From NCBI GenBank assembly GCA_022822785.1, contig JAJEAL010000020.1:1-64000 (forward strand): 64,000 bases of DNA. The letters run 5' to 3'. A model generated the notes under the pieces. That model did not search any database and was not told where the DNA came from. It saw only the letters and a program-made list of their open reading frames with translations. Origin of the DNA: Candidatus Poribacteria bacterium (GTDB lineage Bacteria; Poribacteria; WGA-4E; PCPOR2b). This document shows, piece after piece, positions 41,106 to 42,217 of the stretch. Position 1 is the first letter of the stretch; every line of letters begins with the position of its first letter. The translations under genes were made by a program, and so were the position numbers.

Positions 41106-42101
41106 TCACATTGACTGAAAGAAATCCGCTAAGTCCTTGCCATGTGTCCTTGCGTTGACCTGTTTATCCAGCTTGATAATCTTTCCGTCTTTGTCGATAA
41201 CGACCGTTATACGACTGCTTACGCCATCCGATTTGTCCGTCGCTCCGTAGAGTAAACTAATGTGACGCCCGGTGTCCACAAGCAGCGGAAAATTAAGATT
41301 GTTCTGTTCAGCAAATTTTTTGTGAGATGCTGCATCTTGTACGCTAATTCCAAAGACCTGTGCATCTTTCTCGGCAAATACACTCGACTCATCCCGGAGC
41401 GAGCAGACTTCCGCCGTTCAGCCGCCGGTGAAATTTCTAGGATAAAACGCGAGTACAACGTTCTGTTTCCCTGTGAAGCTGCTGAGTTGATGCGTTTTGC
41501 CATCCTGATCGGAAGCGATGAAGTCTGGCGCAGGCTGACCAACCTCAATTGGACCCGGCAGACCTGCCTTGATTAGCTTGACGAGGTCTGCGCCGTGTGT
41601 TTGTACGTTCACATTTCGGTCTATTGCACGAATATAGCCGGCTTTATCGATAACGAAGGTCGCCCGATTAGAAGCTTGAAACCTTTCCATAATACCGCTG
41701 TAGATTTTGCTAACTGCGAAGTCGGTATCAGCAAGCAGAGGGAACCCAAACTGCTCTGCCTCTTGGAACTTCTTATGGGAGGCTTCATCATCGACGCTTA
41801 TCCCTAAAACAACCGTATCTGTCTCCTCAATTTGGCTCAGCTCATCCCGGAGCGAGCGGAGTTCTGCCGTTCAGCCGCCGGTGAAGTCTTTCGGGTAAAA
41901 TGCCAAAACGACGTGCTTTTTCCCCAAATAATCACGTAAGCTATGGACGACCCCATCTCCATCGTTCAACGTAAAATCTGGTGCCACCATGCCAACTTTC
42001 AGGTCTTTGAATGTTTCCATCTGATTCTCCTCCGCACTTATTGCGCTGGTAATTATGAATGTTGCAATAGTCGTGATACAGAATATTGAAATGCGTGACA
42101 T
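41106..42101 (-). CDS. Exported two-domain peroxiredoxin with two in-frame UGA (predicted selenocysteine) codons
   Basis: 331 residues when both UGA codons are read through, from the ATG at 42101 with AGGAGGG six bases upstream. Residues 1-23 are a signal peptide. Two AhpC/BCP-type peroxiredoxin domains follow (about 30-178 and 182-331). Each has the active-site context FYP(K/R)(D/N)FTGG-UGA-TAE, where relatives have the peroxidatic Cys: UGA at 41871-41873 (position 77) and 41418-41420 (position 228). Each UGA is followed by a hairpin with loop CGGGAU 22-27 nt downstream, fitting a bacterial SECIS. Domain 2 keeps a nearby Cys (EVCSLRDE); domain 1 has Arg there. Likely a periplasmic peroxide reductase. 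Confidence 0.85.
41381..41405 (-). promoter_or_regulatory. Candidate SECIS hairpin after second UGA
   Basis: On the minus strand CTCG pairs with CGAG and CTC with GAG around a bulged T; the apical loop is CGGGAT (41396-41391), 22-27 nt after the UGA. Spacing fits known bacterial SECIS elements, which lie directly downstream of the Sec codon within the coding region. Confidence 0.6.
41836..41861 (-). promoter_or_regulatory. Candidate SECIS hairpin after first UGA
   Basis: On the minus strand CTC-c-GCTC pairs with GAGC-t-GAG, or GCTC closes directly on GAGC with loop CGGGAT (41849-41844), 22-27 nt after the UGA. Same loop and spacing as the hairpin of the second domain; part of the match reflects the conserved SLRDE coding. 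Confidence 0.6.
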
Positions 42102-42217
42102 TGTATACCCTCCTGTAAAGCGAATCGAGAGATCTGCCAACTAACGGATTGAGTACATACATTCGTTGTTGTGTTTTGTACGTGAGCCAACTCTCCACAT
42201 ATCTGTGTCTTAAATCG

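Follow-up and report, generated by a model that had tools for sequence, protein, structure and literature searches.

The window, by which we mean the whole 64-kb stretch of DNA that was analyzed, carries on its reverse strand a gene that spans 42101–41106 and, when TGA is read as selenocysteine (Sec, U), translates into 331 amino acids closed by a TGA stop at 41108–41106 (Table 1). A previous sequence-only reading of this DNA had described one unbroken leftward frame with just two in-frame UGAs, 151 codons apart, and that is what the TGA = U translation gives, the only internal TGAs being codons 77 and 228. Both lie in the same residue context, F-T-G-G-U-T-A-E, within AhpC/TSA domains, confirming that each UGA occupies the peroxidatic position of its repeat. 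Under the standard code the gene is split into three frames in place of one, so the expectation that standard annotation would break it into several ORFs was correct. A signal peptide had also been proposed, and a crude rule (not SignalP) found a signal-peptide-like N-terminus in 57/60 orthologues and a lipobox-like one in 2/60, in keeping with the proposal. The tandem peroxiredoxin is thus a predicted exported protein.

Table 1. Positions of the tandem peroxiredoxin gene and its parts in the window, and of four further UGA-containing frames in the same genome.
Feature	Position	Strand	Details
Tandem peroxiredoxin gene	41106..42101	(-)	ATG at 42101, two internal UGA, terminal TGA 41108-41106
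Shine-Dalgarno AGGAGG	42109..42114	(-)	7 nt 5′ of ATG, read from sequence; good match
Predicted signal peptide, residues 1-23	42033..42101	(-)	Hydrophobic stretch and A-x-A-like site; low-confidence segment in structure model
Domain 1, PrxQ/AhpE-like, residues 34-182	41556..42002	(-)	T74, U77, R146; resolving position 82 is Arg
Sec-UGA 1 (U77)	41871..41873	(-)	UGA in 60/61 alignable orthologues, Ser in one paralogue
Predicted bSECIS 1	41835..41857	(-)	8-bp stem, one bulged U, loop CGGGAU at 41849-41844
Domain 2, PrxQ/AhpE-like, residues 184-331	41109..41552	(-)	T225, U228, C233, R297
Sec-UGA 2 (U228)	41418..41420	(-)	UGA in 63/63 orthologues
C233, predicted resolving Cys (U228-x4-C)	41403..41405	(-)	Cys in 63/63 orthologues
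Predicted bSECIS 2	41382..41404	(-)	8-bp stem, one bulged nucleotide, loop CGGGAU at 41396-41391
Prx/Trx-like frames L020, L021, L022, L024	Own genome C138, C120, C110, C63:69870-70205		Last just outside the window

The description of the product as a tandem-domain peroxiredoxin stood up to profile searches. Pfam PF00578 (AhpC-TSA) matched two stretches of the tandem protein (E 4.3e-73), and the best NCBIfam model above its cut-off was the PrxQ/BCP thiol peroxidase NF006960 (175 bits, cut-off 140), while the PrxU model NF040737 scored 133.3 bits, under its curated cut-off of 270. In the window's species both domains have the peroxiredoxin active site, P-x3-T/S-x2-C(U) plus a distant Arg, and this Arg is kept across orthologues (R146 in 61/62, R297 in 63/63). 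The two domains are 50% identical to each other at the protein level. An AlphaFold2 model of the tandem protein (pLDDT 87.6, pTM 0.85) has two PrxQ/AhpE-like domains, for which the nearest solved structures found by Foldseek were single-domain Bcp1 (PDB 3drn) and AhpE, at a probability of 1.00; no solved structure among the Foldseek matches listed spans the whole tandem length.

The window belongs to a 5.6-Mb Poribacterial metagenome-assembled genome whose close public relatives are all titled Poribacteria. Two predicted Sec residues call for a Sec machinery, and selA, selB, tRNA-Sec (selC) and selD were all found in this genome. The tRNA-Sec scored 74.6 bits, above the Rfam cut-off, and was given the anticodon TCA by ARAGORN; selB (366.6 bits) ends just before it and selA (589.6 bits) lies directly upstream of selB, making the order selA-selB-tRNA-Sec. 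SelD (367.5 bits) is encoded elsewhere in the genome and has a Sec UGA of its own, in CGUAAK. Seven genomes with the tandem gene, whole or in part, gave no tRNA-Sec match, six of which have selA and/or selB at least partly; in the seventh (G029, 81% complete) neither selA nor selB was matched either. Three genomes from outside the order with neither tRNA-Sec nor selA/selB (G003, G004 and G010) are without the tandem gene.

We sought the two-TGA frame in 85 genomes of the phylum and merged the results with those of a public genome scan. The frame was present in 63 of the 85, at identities down to 59%, and four further matches from this search carry one TGA. Of the 63 distinct proteins in the merged set, 60 are full-length and contain both UGAs; neither the phylum search nor the public scan turned up a Cys form at either UGA site among the distinct tandem proteins. 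Cys-PrxQ homologues carry Cys where the tandem proteins carry UGA, and other families of the phylum have single-domain homologues, some with UGA and some with Cys. One genome has a second, diverging copy of the tandem gene (L112:3366-4391) with Ser at the first Sec site and a much changed domain 1; the UGA and Cys of its domain 2 are intact. Across the orthologues, median dN/dS is 0.072 before the first UGA, 0.071 between the two and 0.075 after the second.

These data bear on three other ways of reading the internal UGAs. The gene could be a pseudogene or contain sequencing errors, with the UGAs as random stops in a decaying frame; the standard code does cut it into pieces. UGA, however, stands at the same two codons of 60 distinct proteins, which come from many assemblies, single-contig genomes included, and with dN/dS at about 0.07 on all three segments, downstream of both UGAs as much as before them, we consider this explanation refuted, its probability being close to nil. 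Random decay had been thought unlikely from the outset, and a decayed frame in related strains was looked for as evidence against a working gene; the relatives keep the frame intact. A lineage-wide reassignment or readthrough of UGA as a standard amino acid (Trp, Gly or Cys) would also leave the frame open, whichever such code applied, and mis-insertion of Cys at both UGA sites is compatible with the sequence. Yet TGA is an ordinary stop here, ending 15 of the 47 long ORFs in the window as well as the tandem gene itself, and the genome has tRNA-Sec, selA, selB and a Sec-type selD, making reassignment very improbable. On the sequence comparisons made here, decay and code reassignment are both excluded in practice.

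Finally, the UGAs could act as regulatory stops that yield mostly short products of 76 or 227 amino acids and are read through with Sec only if selenium is abundant. Decoding of UGA as Sec generally competes with termination, which lends this idea some plausibility, but the segments on either side of each UGA are under equally strong purifying selection, so that it is the full-length protein that matters, and we regard regulatory stops as unlikely.

Near-identical hairpins with the loop CGGGAU had been reported downstream of both UGAs, and their positions were verified, the loop occupying 22–27 nt past each UGA (a spacing of 21 nt). The 33-nt UGA-plus-hairpin pattern occurs at these two places in the 64 kb and nowhere else, and 0 times in 100 shuffles. 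DNA identity between the two repeats is 88% over codons 75–88 as opposed to 53% elsewhere, and positions with the same amino acid use the same codon in 10/11 cases in the hairpin region as opposed to 26/63 elsewhere, suggesting that the likeness of the hairpins is not just a product of repeat homology. Gene conversion between the repeats as a general process was considered and rejected, given a hairpin similarity of 0.70 between species and 0.71 within. Relative synonymous entropy over the 60 proteins averages 0.70 for the gene, and its lowest 9-codon windows are the two hairpins, codons 233–241 (0.14) and 81–89 (0.27).

At site 2, all 8 stem pairs form in 58/60 species and 7/8 in the other two, with a loop of CGGGAU or CGUGAU. 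The 8-bp form of the site-1 stem has all 8 pairs in the 10 species of f1 and f2, the two nearest families. In most of the remaining species the stem is shifted and has 7 bp, and its 11-nt loop begins equally far from the UGA and with the same letters; the lowest pair of this stem (17-41) is G-C instead of C-G in six sequences. The published bSECIS rule asks for a loop of 3–9 nt, a G in the first two loop positions and a distance of 16–37 nt from the UGA (PMC13188914). Both hairpins of the window pass it (MFE −13.4 and −17.4), and to that extent the placement claimed for them as bacterial SECIS elements holds; it does not extend to the largest family, whose site-1 hairpin falls outside the loop-size rule. 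Because of this 11-nt loop, strict application of the rule in a simple MFE test passes site 1 in only 5/60 species, as opposed to 55/60 for site 2. Single-sequence hairpin energies are unremarkable against shuffles (z −0.1 to −1.5), and Rfam models gave no relevant match in either the window or the gene. Support for the predicted SECIS elements comes from comparison between species and not from the fold energy of single sequences.

Every sequence-level test therefore supports an intact tandem-domain peroxiredoxin, predicted to be exported and to contain two Sec. Taken together, the frame, the machinery, the conserved UGAs and hairpins, the identity of the domains and the Thr/Cys asymmetry described below lead us to put at about 0.9 the probability that the gene is functional and encodes an exported tandem peroxiredoxin of the PrxQ type, in which both domains receive Sec co-translationally at their peroxidatic positions. 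SelB and Sec-tRNA-Sec would decode each UGA, guided by the hairpin that follows it, with a loop beginning 21 nt downstream. Once exported, the protein would use Sec77 and Sec228 to reduce peroxides to water or alcohol, both Sec being oxidised to selenenic acids. Cys233 would then resolve Sec228 within domain 2, and the resulting selenenylsulfide could be reduced by an exported thiol reductant. Since domain 1 has no resolving Cys here, Sec77 would be resolved from outside its domain, by Cys233 or Sec228 of domain 2 or by an outside thiol. Sec insertion, export, peroxidase activity and the electron path are each predicted on this account.

The two halves are not alike, which refines the earlier reading of two peroxidatic Sec sites: Sec is predicted at both, but only domain 2 has an invariant resolving Cys and only domain 1 an invariant catalytic Thr. 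Thr74 and Sec77 of domain 1 are invariant in the 60 full-length proteins, as are Sec228 and Cys233 of domain 2. The resolving Cys of PrxQ, five residues after the peroxidatic residue, is present in domain 2 (63/63) and absent from domain 1 here (Arg82); position 82 is Cys in 21/60 proteins and the other 39 have no Cys there. In the window's species C233 is the sole Cys of the mature protein, beside the two Sec. Position 225 is Thr in 13/60 (the window's species and 12 others) and Gly in 47/60. The catalytic Thr is reported to tolerate Ser but no residue that lacks a hydroxyl, this group being regarded as essential for peroxide attack (PMC8533274). Domain 1 would therefore be the surer peroxidase, and domain 2 in most species would serve better as a Sec-Cys resolving unit. 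This suggests specialisation into a peroxidase half and a resolving half, in which domain 2 of most relatives, having lost the catalytic Thr, possibly has no peroxidase role. Both domains of the window's species, by contrast, look competent.

Taken further, the asymmetry could mean an obligatory relay, in which domain 1 is the sole peroxidase and domain 2 (Sec228/Cys233) does not itself attack peroxide but resolves and re-reduces Sec77. The 47 second domains with Gly225, a residue that the Ser-only tolerance of the catalytic Thr would not allow in a peroxidase (PMC8533274), nonetheless keep Sec228 and Cys233, and domain 1 always has Thr74 and Sec77 while lacking Cys82 in 39/60. On the other side, Thr225 is kept in the window's species and 12 others, where both domains look competent, and 21/60 have a possible resolving Cys in domain 1. 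We hold the obligatory form only tentatively. A self-resolving selenoperoxidase relay, with Sec77 attacking peroxide and Sec228/Cys233 resolving it and taking electrons from an exported thiol pathway, is likewise possible, though we would not call it probable. If true, one chain would combine a peroxidase with its own selenium-based reductase partner, following an ancient tandem duplication.

In a maximum-likelihood tree all first domains group together (100/98), as do all second domains (99/95), and the two groups join (99/89), which points to one tandem duplication before the order diversified. In one genus (L119 / G016:C35:152011-152490) the tandem gene has been reduced to a single domain with one UGA, the start of which aligns with domain 1 and the rest with domain 2; the two repeats apparently recombined close to the UGA-hairpin segment that they share. 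The gene neighbourhood offered no redox partner in either the window or the largest family. Neighbours in the window are aro genes; in the largest family a PAP2-like membrane gene lies nearby, as do genes that look like ruvC/ruvA. The weakly PAP2-like membrane protein closely follows the gene on the same strand at L073:5003-5638 and 44 loci of this largest Poribacterial family.

Other predicted selenoproteins were met along the way. Four more Prx/Trx-like frames of the same genome have one active-site UGA each (Table 1), in the motifs GEWUPTC, QTYUPYC, GTWUPNS and GAYUPKD, suggesting a sizeable predicted selenoproteome. Adjoining selD is a cobalamin-independent methionine-synthase-like frame with one in-frame UGA (L033:2835-3923 (-), own genome C25:57473-58561), which matches PF01717 and scores 238 bits with NF005085, below the cut-off. 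Its UGA lies in the context GFHLURGNQGSRW, at what we take to be the expected zinc-ligand Cys of the methionine synthase family. The UGA is kept in 7/7 Poribacterial genomes with a close match (6 relatives, 77–87% identity). Methionine synthase is absent from a 2026 selenoprotein inventory (PMC13188914), making this protein a candidate member of a new family of selenoproteins; metal binding through Sec would be notable, if true. In Planctomycetota, a single-domain Sec-peroxiredoxin (L139) is fused in frame to an M28 peptidase by Pfam, and L141 and L142 resemble this fusion by sequence.

Peroxiredoxins with Sec have been described before and are common in the sea (PMC1088965, PMC2398784). The known Prx selenoproteins (TxxU; PrxU, Eubacterium acidaminophilum type) share with the tandem protein an AhpC/TSA fold and Sec in P-x3-T-x2-U, but are listed with one Sec (PMC13188914), whereas the tandem protein unites two domains, each with its own predicted Sec, in a single chain predicted to be exported. 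The tandem protein, unlike PrxU, scores half the PrxU cut-off. The U-x4-C of domain 2 matches the C-x4-C spacing of PrxQ/BCP (NF006960, PRK09437; Bcp1, PDB 3drn), a single-domain protein with Cys whereas the tandem protein has two domains with Sec. Single-domain Sec-PrxQ from other Poribacterial families, Planctomycetota, Myxococcota and Blastocatellia (L121, L133, L136, L139-L142, L147-L149, L152, L153) have Sec at the same position and, unlike tandem domain 2, no Cys five residues on. Two Sec per bacterial chain, as here, are also found in the double selenoproteins MbdU, methyltransferase/UXPK-star, TsoB and the HUGP/GUXX-star fusion, although their domains are other than peroxiredoxin (PMC13188914, Table 1 therein).

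An exported two-domain fusion with two Sec had been called unusual, and the 2026 inventory of 119 selenoprotein families agrees, listing Prx with one Sec and no tandem two-Sec peroxiredoxin (PMC13188914). Our peptide-seeded scan of public genomes found no tandem forms outside Poribacteria, and no paper on Poribacteria and selenoproteins was found in the open-licence literature, so an earlier mention elsewhere is possible. A new two-Sec, two-domain architecture within the known Sec peroxiredoxins is well supported. It shows how standard annotation fragments such Sec genes, and provides a natural experiment on the exchange of catalytic Thr, resolving Cys and Sec between the two copies of an active site. 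The architecture is conserved throughout an order of bacteria that are uncultured and often live with sponges. Most bins from sponge symbionts are reported to have SelA and SelB together (PMC5649159), and the tandem gene gives a concrete reason for retaining them.
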